This document shows positions 30,992 through 45,601 of a stretch of 64,000 nt of DNA, piece by piece. Each line of letters begins with the position of its first letter. Positions within the stretch are counted from its first letter, which is position 1. The translations under genes were made by a program, and so were the position numbers. A model generated the notes under the pieces. It saw nothing but the letters and a program-made list of their open reading frames with translations. It made no database searches and was not told the origin of the DNA. The DNA is from Pseudomonas nicosulfuronedens (GTDB lineage Bacteria; Pseudomonadota; Gammaproteobacteria; Pseudomonadales; Pseudomonadaceae): assembly GCF_005877905.1 (NCBI RefSeq), contig NZ_SWDV01000016.1, forward strand, positions 62,001 to 126,000. Reading direction: 5' to 3'.

Positions 30992-31795
30992 TCAGCGGCC
31001 GTAGCGCTCGCGGCCCCAGGCGATGAAGGTTTCCAGCATTCCGCGGAGCACCTGGGCGGTCGGTGCGGCGAGGTCTTCGCGGTAACCGAAGGGCGCCTGC
31101 TCATCCATGTAGTTGCACTGTGCGAGTTCCAACTGCACCGCGTGCACGTTGTCCTGCGGCTGGCCGTAGTGGCGGGTGATGTGCCCGCCCTTGAAGCGGC
31201 CGTTGAGGATGTGCCTGTAGGCCGGTGCGCCGGCACACACCGCGACCAATCGCTCGGCCAACTCTGCATCGCAGCTCGCGCCGCTGTTGGTGCCGATGTT
31301 GAAGTCCGGCAGCTTGCCGTCGAACAGGTGCGGGATCACCGAGGCGATCGAGTGGGCATCCCACAGCAACGCGTAACCGAACTCGGCCTTCAGGCGCGCC
31401 AGTTCGTCGGTGAGGGTCTGGTGGTAAGGCGTCCAGACTTCGGCGAGGTAACGCGCGCGCTCTTCGGCGGAAGGCGTCTGGCCGTCCTTGAACAGCGGGC
31501 GGCCGTCGAACAGGGTGTCCGGGTAGAGGCCGGTGGTGGCGGTGCTGTACAGCGGCTTGTCGTCGGCCGGGCGGTTGAGGTCGATGACGTAGCGCGAGTA
31601 GCCGGCGGCCAGGGTACTGGCGCCCAGTTCCTCAGCGAAACTGTAGAGCTGCGGGATGTGCCAGTCGGTGTCGGCCAGCTCGCGGGCCTCGTCCACCAGG
31701 CCATTTTCCACGGCCGGGGTCATGCGAGTGCCGGGGTGCGGCATGCTGATCAGCAGGGGCACGCGGCCGCGTTTGAATTCGAGAACGTTGTCCAT
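30992..31795 (-). CDS. hutG: N-formylglutamate deformylase
   Basis: 267 aa zinc hydrolase producing L-glutamate and formate from N-formylglutamate, the last step of the five-enzyme histidine pathway. SMPHPGTRMTP near the N-terminus, DLNRPADDKPLY, and LLWDAHSIASVIPHLFDGKLPDFNIGTN are HutG hallmarks. It is the last gene of the leftward hut operon and is separated from hutI by 112 nt containing a REP element, which could weaken its expression relative to upstream genes. Confidence 0.95.
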   Translation of the reverse strand: MDNVLEFKRGRVPLLISMPHPGTRMTPAVENGLVDEARELADTDWHIPQLYSFAEELGASTLAAGYSRYVIDLNRPADDKPLYSTATTGLYPDTLFDGRPLFKDGQTPSAEERARYLAEVWTPYHQTLTDELARLKAEFGYALLWDAHSIASVIPHLFDGKLPDFNIGTNSGASCDAELAERLVAVCAGAPAYRHILNGRFKGGHITRHYGQPQDNVHAVQLELAQCNYMDEQAPFGYREDLAAPTAQVLRGMLETFIAWGRERYGR

Positions 31796-31907: not shown

Positions 31908-33104
31908 TCATAGTTCTTCGCCGTGACGAATGATGCGCTTGGGCAGGTCGCCGCCGAGCCAATAGGCGAGTTCAGCGGGGCGCTGGATGTCCCAGGCGAT
32001 AAAGTCGGCGACCTTGCCCGCTTCCAGGCTGCCGTGGCTGTCGGCCATGCCCAGCGCCCGCGCGGCGTTGAGGGTGACGCCGGCCAGCGCTTCTTCCGGG
32101 GTCAGGCGGAATGCCGTGCAGGCCATGTTCAGCATCAGCCGCAGCGACAACGCGGGCGAGGTGCCGGGGTTGAGGTCGCTGGCGATGGCGATGTTCACGC
32201 CGTGCTTGCGCAGGGCGTCCATCGGCGGCAGCTGGGTTTCGCGCAGGACGAAGAAGGCGCCCGGCAACAGCACGGCAACGGTGCCGGCTTCGGCCATGGC
32301 GATGGCGTCGCTCTCGTCCATGAATTCCAGGTGGTCGGCGGACAGCGCACCATACCGCGCGGCGAGGCTGGAGCCATGCAGCGAAGACAATTGCTCGGCG
32401 TGCAGTTTGACCGGCAGCCCCAGACGCTGGGCGGTCTGGAATACCCGCTCGACCTGCGCCGGGGAAAACGCCAGGTGCTCGCAGAAGGCATCCACAGCGT
32501 CCACCAGACCTTCCTCGGCCAGGGCAGGGAGGATGTGGTGGCAGACCCGCTCGATGTACTCGTCGGCGCGGCCGGCATACTCCGGCGGCAAGGCGTGAGC
32601 GGACAGGCAGGTGGTGCGTACCGTCACCGGCAGCTCCTGTTCCAGCCGGCGGGCCACGCGCAGCATGCGCCGCTCGCTGTCCAGGTCCAGGCCATAGCCG
32701 GATTTCACCTCCAGCACGGTCACGCCATCGGCCAGCAGTGGGCGGGCACGCTTGATGGCGCTGGCCAGCAGCTCCTCCTCGCTGGCTTCGCGGGTGGCGC
32801 GCACGGTGCTGGCGATACCGCCACCGGCCGCGGCGATCTCGGCATAGCTGACGCCGTTCAGGCGCTGCTCGAACTCACCGCTGCGGTCGCCACCGAACAC
32901 CAGGTGGGTGTGGCAGTCGATGAAGCCGGGCGTGACCCAGGCGCCGCCCAGGTCGGTACTCTGCAGCGGGCGCTCGGGCAATTCGGAGCGCGGGCCGATC
33001 CAGACGATGCGTTCGCCCTCGGTGATGATCGCGGCATCCTCGATGATCGAGTAGCGCCCCGCCTTCATCGTGGCGGCATGGCAGTGCTGCCAGAGGTGTT
33101 TCAT
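31908..33104 (-). CDS. hutI: Imidazolonepropionase
   Basis: 398 aa amidohydrolase that opens 4-imidazolone-5-propionate to N-formimidoyl-L-glutamate. The metal site [19 protein letters not shown] (about residues 63-81), [20 protein letters not shown] and [18 protein letters not shown] are typical. Full length. Its start overlaps the stop of the hutH-like gene upstream (ATGA at 33101-33104). Confidence 0.96.
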
Positions 33105-34633
33105 TGCAGCCTCCCGATACTCGCGCCGACGCTTTGCAGCGCAGCGCGGTCATCCAGCAGCGCGGCGGCGCGGGCGATGTCCGGCGCCAGCCAGCGGTCG
33201 CTGTCGTAGGCCGGCACGCGCTCGCGCAGCAGGCTCCAGGCACAGTCGGTGCCGGCACCGAAACGCTGCGGCTTGAGGAATTCGAAGGCCTGGGCGGCCA
33301 GCAGGTATTCGATGGCGAGGATCTGCGTGACGTTGCCAACCACCTTGCCCAGCTTCAGCGCGGCACTGGTGCCCAGGCTCAGGTGATCTTCCTGCAGGCC
33401 GGAGGTGACGAAGTTGTCCACCACCGCCGGTTGGGCCAGCTGGCGGTTCTCGCCGGCCAGGGAGGCGGCGACGTACTGCACGATCATCATCCCGGAATTA
33501 ACGCCCGGCTGGCTGACCAGGAAGGCCGGCAGGCCACTGACCAGCGGATTGATCAGACGATCCAGGCGGCGCTCGGCAACGCCACCCAGCTCGGCCACGG
33601 CAATCGCCAGCAGGTCGGCGGCCATGGCCACGGACTCGCCGTGGGGGTTGGCCTGGGAGACCACGCGGTAGTCGTCCGGCGTACCCAGCACCAGCGGGTT
33701 GTCGGTGGCGGAATTGAGTTCGGTCTCGATCTGCTTCGCCGCGTGCTCCAGCTGGTCACGGCAGGCGCCGTGGATTTGCGGCATGGAGCGGATGCTCAGC
33801 GCGTCCTGGGTCCGGATGCCCTTGCTGGCGGCGATGACTTCACTGCCCTCGAGCAGCGCACGCAGGTTGGCACCGACTTTCTGCATGCCCGGATGCGGCT
33901 TGAGCGCGATGATCTCGGCGTCGAACGCGTCGATCTGCCCGCGCAGGGCTTCGAAGCTCATGGCACCGATGACGTCGGCCCATTGCGAGAGGCGCGTTGC
34001 GTCGTCGAGGGCGAGGCAGCTCAGGCCAGTCATGCATGGCGTGCCGTTGACCAGGCAGAGCCCGTCCTTGGCACCCAGCTGCACCGGTTCCAGGCCTTCG
34101 GCGGCCAGGGCCTGGAAGGCCGGAACGACTTCGCCGCGGTAGCTCACTTCACCGATGCCCAGCAGCGCCACGCCGACGTGGGCCATGTGGGTCAGGTAAC
34201 CGACCGAACCCTGCGACGGCACGCGCGGGGTGATGCCGTGGTTGAGCAGCGCGACCAGCGCTTCGACCACACGGCGATGCAGGCCGGACTTGCCGTGGCT
34301 GTAGTTGGTGATGGCCGCGCAAATAATCGCGCGGGTCTGCTCGTCCTTCAGCGGCTCGCCGACGCCACAGGCATGGCTGAGCAGGGTATTGCGCGACAGC
34401 TGCGCCAGTTGCTCGCCCTGCAGCACCACGTTGCACAGCGCGCCCAGCCCGGTGTTGATGCCATAGGCGCGCTCTCCCCGGCTGACGATGCGCTCGACGA
34501 TCCCTCGGGCGTTGTCGATGCGCGCCCAGGCCGCCGGCGCCAGTTGCAGGTGCGCGCCATGGCGAGCCACCGCGACCAGGTCCTGCCAGCGCAGCGGGCC
34601 GTTGTCGAGGGTGATGGTGGAAGAGGACGACAT
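33101..34633 (-). CDS. HutH-like ammonia-lyase paralogue lacking the MIO-forming triad
   Basis: 510 aa, collinear with histidase over its whole length ([35 protein letters not shown] and LQEDHLS are kept). At residues 142-150, however, it reads [11 protein letters not shown], where the intact HutH of this window reads [14 protein letters not shown]. The Ala-Ser-Gly that cyclises to the catalytic MIO group is deleted in frame. Further active-site changes are ALSIR for PYSLR and ANPHGES for GNFHAEP. It should not deaminate histidine by the known mechanism. The frame is intact and translationally coupled to hutI (4-bp overlap), with AGGAG before ATG 34633, so it is not decaying visibly. A nonfunctional second hutH copy is known in the P. 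fluorescens SBW25 hut locus. Confidence 0.9.
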
Positions 34634-34682: not shown

Positions 34683-35498
34683 TTAGATCGCGGCGACGCG
34701 GCGCTGGACGAAGCGGTCGACGTATTCGTCGGCGGGCTTGTGCAGGATGTCGGTGGGCGCACCGACCTGGATCAGCTGGCCGTCCTTGAGGATGGCGATG
34801 CGGTTGCCGATGCGCACCGCTTCATCGAGGTCATGGGTGATGAAGACGATGGTCTTGTGCAGGGTCTTCTGCAGCTCCAGCAGCTGGTCCTGCATGTCCG
34901 CGCGGATCAGCGGGTCGAGGGCGCTGAAGGCTTCGTCCATGAGGATGATGTCGGTATCCGCGGCCAGTGCGCGGGCCAGACCAACCCTTTGCCGCATGCC
35001 GCCGGAGAGCTGGTGCGGGTAGGACTTCTCGTAGCCCTTCAGGCCCACGGTGGCGATCCAGTGCAGCGCGCGCTCCTGACACAGCGCCTTGCTCTCGCCA
35101 CGAATCTTCAGGCCGTAGGCGACGTTGTCGAGCACGCTCTTGTGCGGCAGCAGACCGAAGCTCTGGAACACCATGCTGATCTTGCGCCGACGGAAGTTCT
35201 CCAGCGCGGCAGCGTCGTAGGCGAGGACGTCCTCGCCGTCCACCAGGATCTGCCCGCTGGTGGGGTCGATCAGGCGGTTGAAGTGGCGCACCAGGGTCGA
35301 CTTGCCGGAACCGGAGAGGCCCATGATGACAAAGATCTCCCCCGCCTCGATGGACAGCGAGAGGTCGTTCACCCCGACCACGCAATCGGTGGCGGCCAGT
35401 ACCTCGGCCTTGCTCTTGCCCTGGCGGATCATCGCCAGGGCCGCATCGGCCTTGGCGCCGAAGATCTTGTAGACGTTCTTGACCTGGATCTTGCTCAT
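34683..35498 (-). CDS. hutV: Histidine-type ABC transporter ATPase (ProV/OpuA class)
   Basis: 271 aa. It has the long N-terminal extension of the glycine-betaine ATPases (IQVKNVYKIFGAKADAALAMIRQGKSKAEV), Walker A GLSGSGKST, signature LSGGMRQR, Walker B IILMDEAFSALDPLIR and the H-loop THDLDEA. No CBS domains follow. It overlaps hutW by four bases and lies upstream of the hutH paralogue. Its place in the hut operon indicates histidine (or related) uptake. Confidence 0.9.
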   Translation of the reverse strand: MSKIQVKNVYKIFGAKADAALAMIRQGKSKAEVLAATDCVVGVNDLSLSIEAGEIFVIMGLSGSGKSTLVRHFNRLIDPTSGQILVDGEDVLAYDAAALENFRRRKISMVFQSFGLLPHKSVLDNVAYGLKIRGESKALCQERALHWIATVGLKGYEKSYPHQLSGGMRQRVGLARALAADTDIILMDEAFSALDPLIRADMQDQLLELQKTLHKTIVFITHDLDEAVRIGNRIAILKDGQLIQVGAPTDILHKPADEYVDRFVQRRVAAI

Positions 35499-36349
35499 TT
35501 GCTGGCCTCATGGTGGCGCGAGCGGCCGTAAGCCTGGGTGATGCGGTCGATGACCACGGCGAGGATGACGATGGCGAGACCCGCCTCCAGGCCCTTGCCG
35601 ACGTTGAGCGTCTGGATGCCTACCAGCACATCCTCGCCCAGCCCACGGGCGCCGATCATCGAAGCGATCACCACCATCGACAGGGCCATCATGGTGGTCT
35701 GGTTGATGCCGGCCATGATGCTCGGTAGCGCCAGCGGCAGCTGCACACCGAACAGCTGCTGGCGGCGGTTGGCGCCGAAGGCGGTGATGGCTTCCATCAC
35801 CTCGCGGTCGACCTGGCGAATGCCCAGGTCGGTGAGGCGGATCAGCGGCGGCGCGGCGTAGATCACGGTGGCGAAGATCGCCGGCACCTTGCCCAGGCCG
35901 AACAGCATCAGCACCGGAATCAGGTACACGAAGCTGGGCATGGTCTGCATGATGTCCAGCAGCGGCAGCAACACGGCGCGGAAGCGGTCGCTGCGCGCGG
36001 CGACGATGCCCAGCGGGATGCCGATCAGCACCGAGATGATCGTGGCGACCATCATCAGCGCCAGGGTCTGCATCAGCTTGTCCCACAGCCCCACGGCGCC
36101 CACCAGGAACAGCAACCCGACGATCACCACGGTCGGCAGGATGCGCCGCGTGGCGTGCCAGGCGATGCCCGCGACGATGGCCAGCATCAGCCACCAGGGC
36201 GTGGCTCGCAGCACGCTCTCCAGGTTGACGATGGCCCACAGCAGGGTGTCGGAGATGTGGCGGAACACGTCGCCGTAATTGGTAACCAGGGCATCGACCC
36301 AACCGTTGACCCAGTCGGCGATGGAGAAGGTGAAGCGTTCGGGAAACAT
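35495..36349 (-). CDS. hutW: Histidine-type ABC transporter permease (ProW/OpuA class)
   Basis: 284 aa with six or more hydrophobic spans. The coupling loop is AITAFGANRRQQLFGVQLPLALPSIMAGINQTTMMALSMVVIASMIGARGLGEDV, a signature of quaternary-amine/betaine-type permeases. It overlaps the ATPase gene (ATGA) and lies 65 nt downstream of hutX, across a strong hairpin. Confidence 0.92.
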   Translation of the reverse strand: MFPERFTFSIADWVNGWVDALVTNYGDVFRHISDTLLWAIVNLESVLRATPWWLMLAIVAGIAWHATRRILPTVVIVGLLFLVGAVGLWDKLMQTLALMMVATIISVLIGIPLGIVAARSDRFRAVLLPLLDIMQTMPSFVYLIPVLMLFGLGKVPAIFATVIYAAPPLIRLTDLGIRQVDREVMEAITAFGANRRQQLFGVQLPLALPSIMAGINQTTMMALSMVVIASMIGARGLGEDVLVGIQTLNVGKGLEAGLAIVILAVVIDRITQAYGRSRHHEASK

Positions 36350-36414: not shown

Positions 36415-37380
36415 TCAGAGCGCGGCCTGGACCTTCTTCGCAGCGTCCTCGCTGACCCAGGTGGTCCACACTTCCGGGTGTTCCTTGAGGAAGGCCTTGG
36501 CCAGTTGCTCGGAGGTCAGTTTCTCCTTGGCCATCTTCGCCAGGTTCTGGTTCAGCAGGTCGATGGGCAGGTTGACCTTCTCCAGCACGGCGACCAGTTC
36601 CGGGGCCTGGTCATGGAAGGCCCTGGACAGGCCGACCTGGATCTTCACGTCCTTGTTCACGCCCGGCTCCTCCAGCTTCACCAGGTCGGCCTGGCCCATC
36701 AGCGGCGTCGGCGACCAGTAGTAGAAGAGAATAGGCTCCTTGCGCTTGTAGCTCGACAGCACGGCGGCATCCAGGGCCGGGCCGGTGCCGGGGCGGAAGT
36801 TGGTGTATTTGTCCTCGAGGCCGTACTTCTTCAGCATCTCGGAGTTTTCCAGCTCGCAGGTCCAACCGGCCGGGCAGTTGTAGAAACGGCCCTTGCCCGG
36901 CTCTTCCGGATCGCGGAAGACTTCGGAGTACTGGGCAAGGTCGGTCACGGCCTTGAGGTTCGGCGCCTTGGCTTCGATGTTGCGCGCCTTGTCGCCCTCG
37001 ATCACGAAGCGCGGGACGTACCAGCCCTCGGTGGCGCCGACGATGGGGGCGCCCACGCCGACCACCTTGTTCGCGGCGGCGGCCTTGTTCCAGGCGTCGC
37101 TGCGGCCGATCCATTCCTCACTGAAGATCTGGATGTCGTTGTTCGCCAGCGCCTGCTCCATGGTGATGGAGTTGCCCGGCAGGCTGTCGGTTTCGCAGCC
37201 GTAGCCGTTCTTCAGGATGATCTGCATGAGGTCGGTGAGCAGCATGCCGCTCTCCCAGTTCAGCCCGGCGAATTTCACCGGCTTGCCACTCTCGCACCAG
37301 CCGGCGGCCTGGGCCGAGGTGCCGGCCAGCAGGCCGGCGGACAGGAACAGGCCCAGCAGCGTCTTCTTGGTGTTGTTCAT
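36415..37380 (-). CDS. hutX: Histidine-type ABC substrate-binding protein (ProX/OpuAC class)
   Basis: 321 aa. Signal peptide ends near AQAAGWCESG. The mature protein has the OpuAC fold with VKFAGLNWESGML, the four-Cys pattern (CES, YGCETD, YNCPAGWTC) and WSPTPLMGQADLVKLEEP near the ligand pocket. It is the first gene of the transporter sub-cluster in the hut operon. A paralogue is encoded at 41,182-42,198. Confidence 0.9.
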   Translation of the reverse strand: MNNTKKTLLGLFLSAGLLAGTSAQAAGWCESGKPVKFAGLNWESGMLLTDLMQIILKNGYGCETDSLPGNSITMEQALANNDIQIFSEEWIGRSDAWNKAAAANKVVGVGAPIVGATEGWYVPRFVIEGDKARNIEAKAPNLKAVTDLAQYSEVFRDPEEPGKGRFYNCPAGWTCELENSEMLKKYGLEDKYTNFRPGTGPALDAAVLSSYKRKEPILFYYWSPTPLMGQADLVKLEEPGVNKDVKIQVGLSRAFHDQAPELVAVLEKVNLPIDLLNQNLAKMAKEKLTSEQLAKAFLKEHPEVWTTWVSEDAAKKVQAAL

Positions 37381-37459: not shown

Positions 37460-38872
37460 TCAGGTGCGGGCCGGCAGGATCAGCCGGTCCGGTACTGCCC
37501 GCGTGACGCGACGGGCGACCAGGTAATAGAGAACGGCCGGAACCACGAGGCCGATGATCCAGGAGATATCCACGCCACCCAGGGCGTCCACCAGCGGGCC
37601 GGTGTAGAACTTGGTGGAGATGAAGGGCAGCTGCACCAGCACGCCGATCACGTAGACGCTGATGCCGGGGATGTTCCAGCGACCGTAGCGGCCATCGGGG
37701 TCGGCCAGCGCCGGCACGTCGTAGTGCTCGCGAGTGATGCAGTAGTAGTCCACCAGGTTGACCGCGCTCCACGGGGTGAAGAAGGCCAGCAGGAAGAGGA
37801 TGAAGGACTTGAACGCGCCGAGGAACGAATGCTGGCCGAGCAGCGCGATCAGGGTCGCGGCGCCGACGATCAGCAGGACGAACACCAGGCGCTGCGCGCG
37901 GCTCACTTCCAGGTGGCCACGGAAGCCACTGATCACGGTGGCGATGCACATGAAGCTGCCGTAGGAGTTCAGCGTCGAGATGGTGATCTTGCCGAAGGCG
38001 ATGCTGAAGTACAGCAGCGCAGCGACAGCGCCACTGCCGCTCAGGCCGACGATGTAGGCCACTTCATGGCCGGCGAACTGCCCGTTGGCTCCGGCTGCTG
38101 CGAACACGCCGAAGATCATCGCCACTTGCGCGCCGATCACCGAGCCTGCGCCCACGGCGAGGAAGGTTTTCACCGAGGAAGTCTTGCTCGGCAGGTAGCG
38201 CGAGTAGTCCGCGACATACGGCCCGAAGGCGATCTGCCAGGAGGCGGCCAGGGACACCGCGAGCAGGAAGCTGCTCCAGCTGAAATGGCGAATCTGCAGC
38301 AGCGCGCTGACGTCGGTCTGGTTCATCAAGCGGCTGAACAGGTAGACGAAGGCGATCACCCCGATGACGCTGGCAATGCGGCCGATGACGTGGATCACCC
38401 GGTAGCCGAGCACGGTCACCAGCACGATGACGCTGGCAAACATCAGGATGCCGACGCTGTCGCTGACGCCAAACAGCTGGCCCAGCGCCTGACCGGAAAG
38501 CACGGTGCCAGTGGCGGTGAAGCCCAGGTACATCAGGCACACCAGCACGATCGGAATGGCCGCGCCGTAGACGCCGAACTGCACGCGGCTGGAGATCATC
38601 TGTGGCAAGCCGAGCTTCGGCCCTTGGGCGGCGTGCAGCGCCATCACGCCACCGCCGAGCAGTTGGCCGATGAGCAGGCCGATCAGCGACCAGAACACAT
38701 CGCCGCCCAGCACCACGGCGAGGGCGCCGGTGACGATGGCAGTGATCTGCAGGTTGGCGCCCAGCCACAGGGTGAACTGGCTGTAGAGCTTGCCGTGGCG
38801 CTCGGCCTCGGGAATGTAGTTGATCGAACGCACTTCGATCAGGGGTTTGGAGCTATCACTGGCCTGGGACAT
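37460..38872 (-). CDS. NCS1-family (cytosine/purine/allantoin-type) permease, candidate urocanate transporter
   Basis: 470 aa with about twelve hydrophobic spans; the YIPEAERHGKLYSQFTLWLGANLQI start and the NLVDYYCITREHYDVPAL segment identify the NCS1 family. It is located directly after hutU, where Pseudomonas hut loci encode a urocanate-specific transporter, so urocanate is the likely substrate. ATG 38872 begins MSQASDSSKPLIEVRSINYI; the frame from 39013 adds an Arg-rich stretch with no support. Hydantoin or cytosine transport cannot be ruled out from sequence. Confidence 0.82.
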   Translation of the reverse strand: MSQASDSSKPLIEVRSINYIPEAERHGKLYSQFTLWLGANLQITAIVTGALAVVLGGDVFWSLIGLLIGQLLGGGVMALHAAQGPKLGLPQMISSRVQFGVYGAAIPIVLVCLMYLGFTATGTVLSGQALGQLFGVSDSVGILMFASVIVLVTVLGYRVIHVIGRIASVIGVIAFVYLFSRLMNQTDVSALLQIRHFSWSSFLLAVSLAASWQIAFGPYVADYSRYLPSKTSSVKTFLAVGAGSVIGAQVAMIFGVFAAAGANGQFAGHEVAYIVGLSGSGAVAALLYFSIAFGKITISTLNSYGSFMCIATVISGFRGHLEVSRAQRLVFVLLIVGAATLIALLGQHSFLGAFKSFILFLLAFFTPWSAVNLVDYYCITREHYDVPALADPDGRYGRWNIPGISVYVIGVLVQLPFISTKFYTGPLVDALGGVDISWIIGLVVPAVLYYLVARRVTRAVPDRLILPART

Positions 38873-39051
38873 CGTTATTGTTCTCCCGAAGGGATTTCTT
38901 GTCTGTCGATGCACTGCTGCTTCACGGACCAGGCCGCCGCACCACGCCGTGCGGCGGCCCTCTCCCTGGTCCTGGTTCGCTACCCGCGATGGATTGCCCG
39001 TCGTAGGGCGCATAACGCGCCAGCGTTATCCGCCCTACGTGCGGCGCCCCC

Positions 39052-40719
<1,668 letters not shown>

Positions 40720-41181: not shown

Positions 41182-42198
41182 CTACTTCAACGCCGCATCA
41201 ATCTTCCCTGCCGCTTCCGCCGTCACCCACTTCGACCAAAGCTCCCGGTGCTCACGGAAGAACTTCGCCCGCACATCCGCCACGTCCCGGTGGTGTTCGG
41301 CCATATTCGCCAGCAGCGCGTTGAACATCGGCAATGGCAGCTCGACCCTCTCGAATACCTGCACCAGTGCCGGTGCCTTGTCGTGGAAGTCGCGGGACAC
41401 GCCGATGCTGATCTTCGCCGGCAACGAGCGCGAACCCTTCGGACTGGGATTGTTCGGATCGGTCAGCGTCTTCCAGGCCTCCTCATTGAAGGGAGGCTCT
41501 TCCAGCTGCACCAGCTTGAAGCGCCCCAGCAGCGGCGTCGGCGCCCAGTAATAGAAGAGCACCGGCCGGCCCTGGGCGATGGCCGAGCTGATCGCCGCGT
41601 CCAGCGCAGGGCCGGCGCCGGTGCGGAAGTTCACGTAGCTGTCCGTCAGGCCGTAGGCCTTGAGCTTCTGCGTGTTGACGATCTCGCAGGTCCAGCCGGT
41701 GGGGCAGTTGTAGAACCGGCCCTTGTCCGGCTCCTCGTCATCCTTGAACAGCGCCTTGTATTCAGGCAGGTCGCTGACGGACTTCAGTCCCGGCGCGGAG
41801 GCCTTGATGCCGCGCTTGGCGTCGCCGTGCACCACGTAGTCAGGCACCCACCAGCCTTCACTGGCGCCCTTGACCGTCTCGCCCACGGAGAACACCTGGC
41901 CGGCCTTCTCCGCCTGCTGCCAGACGGTGCTGCGCCCGGCCCACTGTTCGCCGGTGACCTGGATGTCGTTCTGCTTCAGCGCGTTTTCCATGGTCACGGT
42001 GTTACCCGGCACCGCATCGGTCTGACAGCCGTAGCCTTTCTCCAGGATGAAGCGCAGCACCTCGGTGGTGAACATGCCGCTCTCCCAGTTCAGCCCGGCG
42101 AACACCACGGTTTTCGGGTAAGGGCAGCCAGCGGCGAGGGTCTGGGCGCACAGCCCGAAGGCCAGCAACAGGGCGAACAGGCAACGGATGGCAGGCAT
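41182..42198 (-). CDS. Second ProX/OpuAC-class binding protein of the hut region
   Basis: 338 aa. The signal peptide ends at QTLAAGCPYP. It is closely similar along its whole length to the hutX product (VFAGLNWESGM, EKGYGCQTDAVPGNTVTMENAL, GRFYNCPTGWTCE, FYYWAPTPLLGRFKLVQLEEP) but has an extra roughly 20-residue loop near residues 245-270 (FNEEAWKTLTDPNNPSPKGS). No ATPase or permease accompanies it, so it probably feeds HutVW with a different ligand (inference). It is divergent from the functional hutH, with 234 bp between starts. Confidence 0.88.
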   Translation of the reverse strand: MPAIRCLFALLLAFGLCAQTLAAGCPYPKTVVFAGLNWESGMFTTEVLRFILEKGYGCQTDAVPGNTVTMENALKQNDIQVTGEQWAGRSTVWQQAEKAGQVFSVGETVKGASEGWWVPDYVVHGDAKRGIKASAPGLKSVSDLPEYKALFKDDEEPDKGRFYNCPTGWTCEIVNTQKLKAYGLTDSYVNFRTGAGPALDAAISSAIAQGRPVLFYYWAPTPLLGRFKLVQLEEPPFNEEAWKTLTDPNNPSPKGSRSLPAKISIGVSRDFHDKAPALVQVFERVELPLPMFNALLANMAEHHRDVADVRAKFFREHRELWSKWVTAEAAGKIDAALK

Positions 42199-42432: not shown

Positions 42433-43962
42433 ATGCCCGAAACCCTGCTCCTGACGCCCGGCCAGTTCGACCTCGACCAGCTGCGCGCCATCTACCAGCA
42501 CCAACCCGACCTGCAGCTCGCCGACGAATGCCGCGAAGCCATCCTGCGCAGCGCGCAGACGGTCAGCCAGATCATCGCCGACCAGCGCACCGTCTACGGC
42601 ATCAACACCGGCTTCGGCCTGCTGGCGCGCACCTCCATCGCCGAGGACCAGCTCGCTACCCTGCAGCGCAACCTGATCCTCTCCCACTGCACCGGCACCG
42701 GCCCGCTGCTGGACGATTCCAGCGTCGCGCTGATCATGGCGTTGAAGATCGGTTCCCTGGCGCGCGGCTTCTCCGGCGTCGGATTGCCGGTGATCGAGAC
42801 GCTGCTCAAGCTGTACCGGGCGCGGGTCTACCCTTGCATCCCGTCCCAGGGTTCGGTGGGCGCTTCGGGCGACCTGGCGCCGCTGGCGCATATGTCCTCG
42901 ATCCTGCTCGGCGTTGGCCAGGTTCGCCATGAAGGGCGCATCCTCGAAGCCACCGAAGGCCTTACTCTCGCCGGCGCCGAGCCGCTGGTGCTCGGCCCCA
43001 AGGAAGGCCTGGCGCTGATCAATGGCACCCAGGTATCCACCGCGCTGGCCCTGCGCGGGCTGTTCGCGGCGGAGAAGCTGTTCGTCTCTGCCGTGGTGGC
43101 GGGCAGCCTGACGGTAGAAGCGCTCAAAGGCTCGTTCGTCCCCTTCGATGCACGTATCCAGGAAGTGCGCGGCCAGCCGGGGCAGATCGCCGTCGCCGCG
43201 CTGTACCGCGAGCTGCTGCACGACAGTCCGATCAACCAGTCGCACATCGACTGCAAGCGCGTGCAGGACCCTTACTCGCTGCGCTGCCAACCACAGGTGA
43301 TGGGCGCGTGCCTGGATCATCTGCGCTTCGCCGCCGGGGTTTTCCTGCGCGAGGCCAATGCCGTTTCCGACAACCCGCTGGTGTTCAGCGCTGACGGCGA
43401 CGTTCTGTCAGGCGGTAACTTCCACGCCGAGCCGGTGGCGATGGCCTCCGATGTGCTGGCGCTGGCGATTTCGGAAATTGGCGCGCTGTCCGAGCGACGC
43501 ATCGCCCAGTTGGTGGACCCGGCGATGTCCGGGCTGCCGGCGTTCCTGGTCAAGGAGGGCGGGCTGAACTCCGGCTTCATGATCGCCCAGGTCACTTCGG
43601 CGGCGCTGGCCTCGGAGAACAAGACCTGGGCGCACCCGGCCTCGGTGGACAGCCTGCCCACCTCGGCCAACCAGGAAGACCACGTGTCCATGGCCACCTT
43701 CGCCGCCCGCCGCCTGCAGGACATGGCCGGCAACAGTGCCGGCGTGGTCGCCATCGAACTGCTGGCCGCCGCACAGGGCGTGGACTTCCATGCGCCGCTG
43801 CAAAGCTCGCCGCAGCTGCAGGAAGTCCGCACGCTGATCCGCAGCCAGGTGCCGCATTATGAGCAGGACCGCTACTTCGCGCCGGACATCGCCGCTGCGC
43901 GGGCGTGGGTGGAGGATGGAGTGATGAGCCGCTGGATCGGTTACGCGCGGCTTTACGACTGA
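42433..43962 (+). CDS. hutH: Histidine ammonia-lyase (functional histidase)
   Basis: 509 aa. It deaminates histidine to urocanate, the first step. The MIO-forming Ala-Ser-Gly is present ([14 protein letters not shown], triad at residues 144-146), as are [50 protein letters not shown] and [12 protein letters not shown] 42433 is chosen because the family N-terminus begins there and the frame from 42358 would read through the operator. It is monocistronic and opposite in direction to the rest of the catabolic operon. Confidence 0.97.
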
Positions 43963-44109: not shown

Positions 44110-44700
44110 TCAACGCGGATCGAGTTCGATCACGCAGATATCCGTCTTGCCCGCTGCTGACAGCCGCCACTCATGCAGCGCACCATCGCCCTCAGCGAGC
44201 AGCGTGTCATGCAGCCCCAGTAGACCGGCAGCTTCATCATCGTGGCTGACATGGACACCCTCCCCCGCACTGAACAGCAGCACCGTTGAAGCGCTGCTGA
44301 AGAAGTGCGCCGCACCGTCCAGCTTCAACCACTGCAGCCGCGCCCGGTAACGAGCCGGCGAATAGATCAGGTTGAAATCGCGGATCGCCCCGCCCAGCAA
44401 CGTGCAGTCCACCGCGCTGGCGCCATCGAAGGCGAAGGCGTCGAGCGCGCGCAGGTCGCGGGAGTCGGTACCATCCACCTTCAGTTGCATGCCTTCGCCT
44501 TCCAGCACGCTGATGATGCGCTGGTAGCCGGTAAACGCGGAGAACGGCCCCGGCGCACCAACGTCTGCGATGGACACGCGCCAGCCGAAACCTTCCAGGC
44601 CATCGCCGGCATCGCGGACGATCTCGCGGGTAGTGCCCGCGCCATTCTTCCAGGGCATCGCCGGGTAGTCGGCAGCGCGCAGCAATCGCAGATCGGTCAT
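44110..44700 (-). CDS. hutD: HutD-family protein
   Basis: 196 aa cupin-like (bicupin) protein. PAMPWKNGAGTTREIVRD (about residues 13-30) and FSAFTGYQRIISVLEGEGMQL are HutD landmarks. HutD has been reported in P. fluorescens to limit hut activity independently of HutC; its ligand is not established. It overlaps hutC by four bases (ATGA at 44697-44700), and ATG 44700 is therefore preferred over the upstream in-frame ATG 44805, which lies inside hutC. Confidence 0.92.
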   Translation of the reverse strand: MTDLRLLRAADYPAMPWKNGAGTTREIVRDAGDGLEGFGWRVSIADVGAPGPFSAFTGYQRIISVLEGEGMQLKVDGTDSRDLRALDAFAFDGASAVDCTLLGGAIRDFNLIYSPARYRARLQWLKLDGAAHFFSSASTVLLFSAGEGVHVSHDDEAAGLLGLHDTLLAEGDGALHEWRLSAAGKTDICVIELDPR

Positions 44701-45464
44701 GAACTGAAACGTCCTTCCAGGCGGTAGCGCGAGCCCGGATAGAGCAGGCGCGCGCTGGTCACGGTATTGCGTCCCGACCAGGTGCGCCGACGGATCAGCA
44801 GGCACGGCTCATGGCGGTCGACAGACAGCAGCTTGCATTCCTCGGGACTGGGCAGCACCGCCTCGACCACGTGCTCGCCCTCGCTCAGTGGCGCGACCTG
44901 GGTGAGGTAGGCGAACGGCGTCTGCCCGGTGAAATCCTGCTTCAGGTAGTCCGGTGCCACGGCGGCATTCACATAGCGGTCTTCGATCTGCACCGGAATA
45001 TCGTTCTCGTAGTGCACGATCACCGAGTGGAAGATGCGCTGACCTTCGCGCACGTCCAGCGCCAACGCTCGCTCGGCACTGGCCAGTTCTTCGATCAGGC
45101 TGACCACCACCAGGTGATGCTTGTGGCCGCGGGCGGTGATTTCCTCGGCGATGTTCTGCACCTGGAACAACGCGGACTGGCCCTTGGGCTCGGCAACAAA
45201 GGTACCCACGCCCTGCATGCGCACCAGCAGGCCGTCGGCGGTCAGCTCGCGCAGCGCGCGGTTGATGGTCATGCGGCTGACGCCCAGCTCGTCGACCAAC
45301 TCCGCTTCGGAGGGCACGCGATGGTGCGGCGGCCAGGTGCCGGACTGGATCTGCTGGATGATCAGTTGCTTGACGCGGGCGTACAACGGCGCGGGAATTT
45401 CCCCCATCTGCGCGGCGAGCGACGAACCCTCGGCGGGCGAGGTAGGCGTGGGCGATGCGGGCAC
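44697..45464 (-). CDS. hutC: HutC, GntR-family repressor of histidine utilisation
   Basis: 255 aa. The N-terminal GntR winged helix (about residues 24-90; VPSEAELVDELGVSRMTINRALRELTADGLLVRMQGVGTF) is followed by a UTRA ligand domain that binds urocanate. The start is put at GTG 45464, with AAGGAG six bases upstream. An ATG-initiated frame from 45545 adds 27 residues but has no ribosome site. It is translationally coupled to hutD and divergent from hutF, with 190 bp between the starts. Confidence 0.93.
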   Translation of the reverse strand: MPASPTPTSPAEGSSLAAQMGEIPAPLYARVKQLIIQQIQSGTWPPHHRVPSEAELVDELGVSRMTINRALRELTADGLLVRMQGVGTFVAEPKGQSALFQVQNIAEEITARGHKHHLVVVSLIEELASAERALALDVREGQRIFHSVIVHYENDIPVQIEDRYVNAAVAPDYLKQDFTGQTPFAYLTQVAPLSEGEHVVEAVLPSPEECKLLSVDRHEPCLLIRRRTWSGRNTVTSARLLYPGSRYRLEGRFSS

Positions 45465-45601
45465 GGGAAACTCCTTGTCTGGGCGACGGTGGACGAAGGC
45501 CTGGGTCTGACTCCGGCATGTACCGGATTCGACCGGTGCATACAAGTCCTGTAGCGACCGTCGGGTGCCTGGCAGTTTACGGTCTCGGCAAACGTCTGTA
45601 T

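Follow-up and report, generated by a model that had tools for sequence, protein, structure and literature searches.

A MIO-less HutH paralogue in the hut locus of Pseudomonas nicosulfuronedens, a predicted hercynine trimethylamine-lyase

Two described systems are among those closest to the gene analyzed here. For Pseudomonas fluorescens SBW25, passages of PMC8871633 call hutH1 a histidase, find it dispensable for growth on histidine and identify HutTu as a urocanate transporter, and they report a module with hutH1, hutTu and hutXWV for P. aeruginosa. Ergothionase of Treponema denticola (PDB 6s7j/6s7q) lacks the 4-methylideneimidazole-5-one (MIO) group and releases trimethylamine from the histidine betaine ergothioneine, as described in part of PMC13405746. 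The window, a stretch of 64,000 nucleotides from Pseudomonas nicosulfuronedens (assembly GCF_005877905.1, contig NZ_SWDV01000016.1, positions 62,001 to 126,000, forward strand), contains a hut operon in which the minus-strand gene at 33101-34633 encodes a homologue of HutH, the histidine ammonia-lyase (HAL), without the Ala-Ser-Gly triad from which MIO forms. From sequence comparisons we infer the substrate and reaction of its product: with a probability of about 0.62, this MIO-less gene encodes a MIO-independent hercynine (histidine-betaine) trimethylamine-lyase of the HAL/PAL superfamily that yields urocanate.

In the proposed route, HutXWV would import L-hercynine (histidine betaine, Na,Na,Na-trimethylhistidine), the MIO-less lyase would eliminate trimethylamine from it to give urocanate, and HutU, HutI, HutF and HutG would convert urocanate to glutamate. 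It is the importer, the MIO-free lyase and the hut enzymes taken together that point to histidine-betaine catabolism. MIO reacts with the lone pair of an amine and makes a poor leaving group a good one; a quaternary ammonium group has no lone pair and already leaves, and MIO would thus be useless for it. A literature search in open-licence PubMed Central found no paper on a hercynine lyase, and one may have been reported elsewhere. The MIO-less lyase is probably hutH1 of SBW25, matched by gene order only, which lies in the same module with hutTu and hutXWV.

Sequence and active site of the MIO-less lyase

Translation of the gene gave a protein of 510 aa with zero internal stops. At residues 142-152 it reads GSVG-Y where HutH has GSVG-ASG-D, a net loss of three codons relative to the HutH encoded in the window (42433-43962, plus strand), which retains Ala-Ser-Gly. 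The initial annotation had described a HutH paralogue lacking the triad and had placed the three missing codons near 34,198/34,199; both points held, and the Tyr146 codon lies at 34198-34196. It had also called two further active-site segments altered, codon use normal and the gene joined to hutI, and the same was found here: ALSIR stands for PYSLR and ANPHGES for GNFHAEP, the G+C content of third codon positions is 0.87 as in hutI and hutH, and the lyase stop and the hutI start share 4 bp. Identity to the window HutH is 41%, which indicates an old paralogue rather than a recent deletion. The protein matched PF00221 (Lyase_aromatic) with 559.7 bits over a full-length fold, and two NCBIfam histidase models matched it above cut-off, the hutH model with 549.9 bits against a cut-off of 539.15. 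Because that model passes a triad-free protein, automatic annotation is blind to the triad; it is because the triad is absent that we do not class the protein as a histidase. The predicted structure had a mean predicted local distance difference test score of 91.6, with 76 at residues 141-150 and 64 and 57 for 401-420.

Active-site positions were compared across 189 aligned rows (112 MIO-type, 74 with GSxGY and 3 others), among which near-copies were kept and the window protein was present twice; residues carry what we take to be the HAL numbering. The GSxGY motif was found in all 74 MIO-less rows, and Tyr146 is invariant there. HAL residues Y53, H83, Q277, R283 and E414 were kept in 74 of 74 MIO-less rows and N195 in 73 of 74. 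Tyr280 of HAL (QD-x-Y-S-x-R), which is Tyr in 112/112 MIO-type rows, is Leu in 74/74 MIO-less rows, and Leu also occupies this position in ergothionase (6s7j) and in two rows of a further kind, the AAD type. Phe329, likewise present in every one of the 112 MIO-type rows, is replaced by Pro (60 rows), Ala (12), Cys (1) or Gly (1) in the MIO-less rows. With Tyr146 invariant and Phe329 lost, a trimethylammonium group would have both space and contacts.

The lyase and HutH are thus alike in whole-chain homology, in most active-site residues and in their place in the hut operon, and the lyase differs in the missing Ala-Ser-Gly, in Leu for Tyr280, in Phe329 being mostly Pro or Ala, and in a linked importer. 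With ergothionase it shares the HAL fold, the absence of a MIO triad, Leu at Tyr280, Ala for the Gly before F329, and E414, whereas the triad replacement differs (SSIGEGD in ergothionase, GSVGY in the MIO-less lyase). The premise of the initial annotation that catalysis in this fold needs MIO is therefore not general, since ergothionase has the fold and no MIO in the account given in part of PMC13405746. AAD-type lyases (Rhizobium ruizarguesonis, L057; Salinicola corii, L174) resemble the MIO-less lyase in the HAL fold, an altered triad, Leu at Tyr280 and an adjoining OpuAC-type binding protein; they differ in their GS[IL]GAAD motif and group with ergothionase in the larger tree described below. 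The AAD-type lyase (L174:12996-18700, L057:5992-8499) lies beside a glycine-betaine-type binding protein, in Salinicola corii also with an OpuC-type importer, and may act on another histidine-like betaine.

Conservation, spread and phylogeny

A search of 143 genomes of relatives, source genome included, found MIO-less orthologues at 73-100% identity in 27, the next best matches reaching at most 44%. Aligning hutH paralogues around the triad, as the initial annotation had proposed, gave the same gap and motif in 27 of 27 Pseudomonadaceae orthologues, with no internal stop (the TGA in L029 is the normal stop), which excludes a sequencing error. The gene was present in 20 of the 25 genomes of a genus sample. 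Its median pairwise ratio of nonsynonymous to synonymous substitution rates (dN/dS) was 0.27 (15 sequences, 105 pairs), compared with 0.257 for hutI and 0.105 for hutU, where pairwise dS is possibly underestimated in such GC-rich genes; the value for HutH was 0.37, but two HutH types were mixed in it and it is no clean yardstick. The MIO-less gene is under purifying selection.

In a further search, 22 of 398 genomes drawn from the phylum matched the MIO-less protein at E <= 1e-120, a cut that may miss divergent members such as the one from Klebsiella. Plasmid records added members from Erwinia (72%), Rhizobium (52%), Roseateles (50%), Priestia megaterium (47%) and Klebsiella (43%), all without the triad. 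In a named genome collection, at least 28 loci were MIO-less by motif and 52 MIO-type among the 80 matches listed; the MIO-less ones among these listed matches include P. aeruginosa PA7, P. fluorescens C2, P. syringae pv. cilantro and Serratia rubidaea, and further Salinicola corii, Polaromonas sp. P2-4 and Paenibacillus eucommiae. The GSxGY motif is common to members from Pseudomonas to Priestia.

In a tree of 108 rows, the 36 MIO-less representatives formed one clade (support 95 in the Shimodaira-Hasegawa-like approximate likelihood ratio test), and the ergothionase and AAD-type rows formed a separate group (99); the Klebsiella and ergothionase rows were long-branched. When the trait columns were masked in a tree of 77 rows, the MIO-less rows were not one clade (2 changes), a single clade was not rejected by the approximately unbiased (AU) test (0.52), and neither was a joint clade of MIO-less and ergothionase-like rows (AU 0.62). 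The unmasked 77 rows placed both on one side of a branch with a support of 78, and removal of the three longest-branched rows again left the joint clade not rejected (AU 0.80). We therefore make no claim of a MIO loss separate from that in ergothionase: the 108-row tree parts the groups, but the other trees do not reject one clade. MIO was lost either once, in an event shared with ergothionase, or twice.

The hut locus, its importers and the product pathway

The features of the locus in the window are as follows.

30992..31795, minus strand: hutG, N-formylglutamate deformylase, by profile match
31908..33104, minus strand: hutI, imidazolonepropionase, by profile match; 4-bp overlap with the lyase stop
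33101..34633, minus strand: MIO-less HutH paralogue (hutH1-like), predicted hercynine trimethylamine-lyase, 510 aa, by sequence, profiles and alignment
34196..34198, minus strand: Tyr146 codon, at the place of the HutH MIO Ala-Ser-Gly(-Asp); Tyr in 74/74 MIO-less rows
34683..35498, minus strand: hutV, ATPase of an ATP-binding cassette (ABC) importer, 49 bp upstream of the lyase
35495..36349, minus strand: hutW, ABC importer permease, choline/ProW-like but under the cut-offs of those models
36415..37380, minus strand: hutX, OpuAC-type binding protein, by profile; Trp90/173/222 aligned to E. coli ProX Trp65/140/188
37460..39013, minus strand: NCS1-family permease at the position of HutTu, start codon uncertain
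39052..40719, minus strand: hutU, true urocanate hydratase (hutU model, 1037.5 bits)
41182..42198, minus strand: second OpuAC-type binding protein, sharing the three Trp of HutX
42433..43962, plus strand: canonical hutH, Ala-Ser-Gly triad present; its product shares 41% identity with the MIO-less protein
44110..44805, minus strand: hutD-like, matching a Ves-family model below cut-off
44697..45545, minus strand: hutC-like repressor, by similarity to the annotated hutC in locus L050
45655..47019, plus strand: hutF-like formimidoylglutamate deiminase, named after the annotated L050 deiminase that it resembles

The minus-strand operon runs hutU, NCS1 permease, hutX, hutW, hutV, MIO-less lyase, hutI, hutG, with intergenic gaps of 38, 79, 65, -4, 49, -4 and 112 bp, the first of which hinges on the uncertain permease start. 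The canonical hutH is divergent and adjoins the gene for the second OpuAC-type binding protein. A lone binding protein of this kind beside hutH occurs in some, not all, of the Pseudomonas hut loci compared. A third HAL homologue, with an intact triad, is encoded elsewhere in the source genome (G000:C16:9705-11051, L003).

Importers were counted when a gene lay within 1.5 kb upstream of the lyase on the same strand. Enough upstream sequence was present for 160 of 187 rows, and collapsing near-copies left 36 MIO-less, 56 MIO-type and 2 AAD-type representatives. An importer was found upstream in 31 of the 36 MIO-less representatives and in 1 of the 56 MIO-type ones, a comparison biased toward finds at MIO-less loci, from which the importer references were partly drawn, and one in which MIO-type genes may have other transporters. 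The single MIO-type match is the ATPase of an oligopeptide transporter (L055). The importers of the MIO-less representatives were of ProU type in 16, polar-amino-acid type in 12, BCCT type in 2 and OpuC type in 1; types for quaternary ammonium compounds thus accompany 19 of the 36, the window's included. By inspection, the Klebsiella plasmid carries OsmV-OpuBB-OpuBB-OpuCC directly before the lyase, an importer that the rule missed. The order in Paenibacillus eucommiae is OpuC-type importer, lyase, hutU, hutI, hutG-like, and a BCCT carrier (PF02028, 400 and 391 bits) lies between hutU and the lyase in Salinicola corii and in G189.

The pairing of importer and lyase was also seen among the 143 genomes of relatives, where HutW at 90% identity or more occurred in 25, all of them within the 27 that hold the lyase. 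In the remaining two (G016 and G029) polar-amino-acid-type importers adjoin the lyase, which in G016 lies beside its own importer and away from the hut locus. Less similar HutW copies (80-84%) are found in genomes without the MIO-less lyase. HutX is an OpuAC protein whose Trp90, Trp173 and Trp222 align to Trp65, Trp140 and Trp188 of E. coli ProX (1r9l), which we take to be the betaine cage. These residues were kept in 42, 41 and 41 of 42 HutX-like rows, respectively (near-copies kept, the window's own twice). As a separate observation, Acetoanaerobium noterae (L054:8992-15288) has a MIO-type HutH followed by a divergent HutU-like protein of 681 aa and an OpuC-type importer.

The HutU proteins of the window and of four other loci (L099, L174, L053 and L052) all passed the hutU model (cut-off 375) with at least 991 bits and stayed under the thresholds of the thiourocanate and S-methyl-thiourocanate hydratase models. 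Gene content in the window and these four loci thus supports a product route to true urocanate hydratase. Thiourocanate hydratase was found above cut-off in 0 of the 22 MIO-less genomes (the S-methyl type was not sought genome-wide). With a true HutU and no thiourocanate hydratase, the product is most likely urocanate, and by these sequence matches the substrate is most likely a histidine altered at its amine and not in its ring. A search for hercynine synthesis found no EgtD match in the source genome, so hercynine would come from outside.

All 27 Pseudomonadaceae genomes with the MIO-less gene also hold a homologue with 40-44% identity to it, in the range expected of canonical HutH, and in other genomes checked for HAL matches a better HutH match was usually present. 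Two genomes differ. In Paenibacillus eucommiae (a 10.3 Mb assembly whose completeness is not told) no canonical HutH was found and the MIO-less lyase is the only HAL-family match; in Salinicola corii (G432, completeness 100) no canonical HutH was found either, the matches being the MIO-less lyase, the AAD-type lyase and one other HAL homologue, which we take to be of aryl-polyene type from its motif. Since the lyase occurs with hutU and hutI in both, it need not be a partner of HutH, and a role as obligate partner subunit was rejected on these two assemblies. In Polaromonas sp. P2-4 the canonical hutH is fragmented (G526:C1:3802210-3803680) and the MIO-less lyase intact.

Substrate of the lyase and its meaning

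Several findings weigh against hercynine as the substrate. The polar-amino-acid-type importer of 12 of the 36 representatives does not by itself point to a quaternary substrate, no recognised importer was found at loci L077 and L087, the Priestia lyase locus has MFS transporters, and L106 has, by eye, an apparent peptide-type ABC system. Directly after the MIO-less lyase, a SolA-type flavoprotein amine oxidase is encoded in Roseateles (L051:10501-11646) and in G242 (L082, near 10728). Ergothionase keeps the F329 that the MIO-less lyase has lost and has Ser for the N195 that the lyase keeps, and whole-chain scores place the MIO-less protein closer to histidases, with 346.7 bits, than to ergothionase, with 219.1 bits. 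PA5093 of P. aeruginosa PAO1 is, as we understand it, annotated as an ammonia-lyase and may, by gene order, be the MIO-less gene. A 'hutG (PA5093)' mutant grew poorly on histidine or urocanate according to part of PMC12772324. If PA5093 is the MIO-less lyase, this phenotype would need a polar effect or would weigh against our reading. Part of PMC9732360 reports that the OpuC-type EgtUC binds ergothioneine about 10,000-fold tighter than hercynine, so the importer family cannot tell the two apart. HutXWV is described as a histidine transporter in passages of PMC8871633, which would suggest a broader or different importer substrate.

Two of the alternatives keep a MIO-free lyase and change its substrate. 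One is another N-substituted histidine (mono- or dimethylated, or otherwise N-alkylated), or a promiscuous enzyme; the 12 polar-amino-acid-type importers and the two adjoining SolA-type oxidases would fit it, against which stand the OpuC-, ProU- and BCCT-type importers of other lineages and the three cage-like Trp of HutX, and we consider it unlikely, if not negligibly so. The other is ergothionase itself, which would convert ergothioneine to thiourocanate and trimethylamine. Fold, MIO loss and Leu at Tyr280 are common to both enzymes, and one joint clade was not rejected in the 77-row analyses, but the gap differs, the ergothionase-like rows form their own group in the 108-row tree, and the five HutU proteins lie far above the hutU cut-off and under those of the thio-hydratases. 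The ergothionase product thiourocanate has a dedicated hydratase, and its absence above cut-off from the 22 genomes makes ergothioneine unlikely as the main substrate. We infer that the MIO-less lyase works like ergothionase, but we do not class it as one, the thiourocanate hydratase that defines that pathway not having been found.

The remaining alternatives deny the lyase a new reaction. A pseudoenzyme without catalysis, serving to bind urocanate or histidine or to build mixed tetramers with HutH, would suit the loss of MIO and the canonical-level homologue in 27 of 27 Pseudomonadaceae genomes, yet it is improbable given the kept catalytic residues, the G016 copy beside its own importer and the two genomes that yielded no canonical HutH. 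The initial annotation had argued that keeping a MIO-less lyase intact points to a different role, and this part stands. Of the three roles that it offered, activity without MIO fits best; obligate mixed tetramers conflict with those two genomes, and ligand binding alone is hard to square with the conserved catalytic residues and the importer-lyase-hutU operons. A histidase acting on histidine without MIO could draw on the two NCBIfam matches and on the published description of HutXWV, but the NCBIfam cut-offs are blind to the triad, and in PMC12772324 mutation of hutH leaves P. aeruginosa PAO1 with poor growth on histidine, though P. aeruginosa carries the MIO-less gene (strain PA7); this reading is highly improbable. 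Simple decay of a HutH copy, which the initial annotation had tied to a dN/dS near 1 and scattered frameshifts, has practically no chance: the triad is lost, and hutH1 is dispensable on histidine in the passages of PMC8871633 cited above, but the low dN/dS and the open frames of all 27 orthologues rule it out, and GSxGY is shared from Pseudomonas to Priestia.

Hercynine cleavage by a MIO-free lyase, our preferred reading, has a wider form, for which we judge the odds even: bacteria would have a dedicated, unrecognised histidine-betaine route in which importers of at least three families (ProU-, OpuC- and BCCT-type) were each paired with a single MIO-free lyase supplying the hut pathway, also in genomes that lack a histidase. 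The switch of leaving group from ammonia to trimethylamine, made once and shared with ergothionase, or made twice, would have MIO loss combined with Leu for Tyr280 as its general signature in this fold, and many 'hutH' genes would then be misnamed trimethylamine-lyases. If true, HutXWV would gain a function, and so would the 'dispensable second histidase' of Pseudomonas, a recognised puzzle in a model operon; a further predicted microbial source of trimethylamine would be added as well. Database entries named 'hutH' could be re-annotated by the motif GSxGY with QDxLS. The family would also be a natural experiment on the purpose of MIO, with one fold occurring with and without it, sorted by leaving group.

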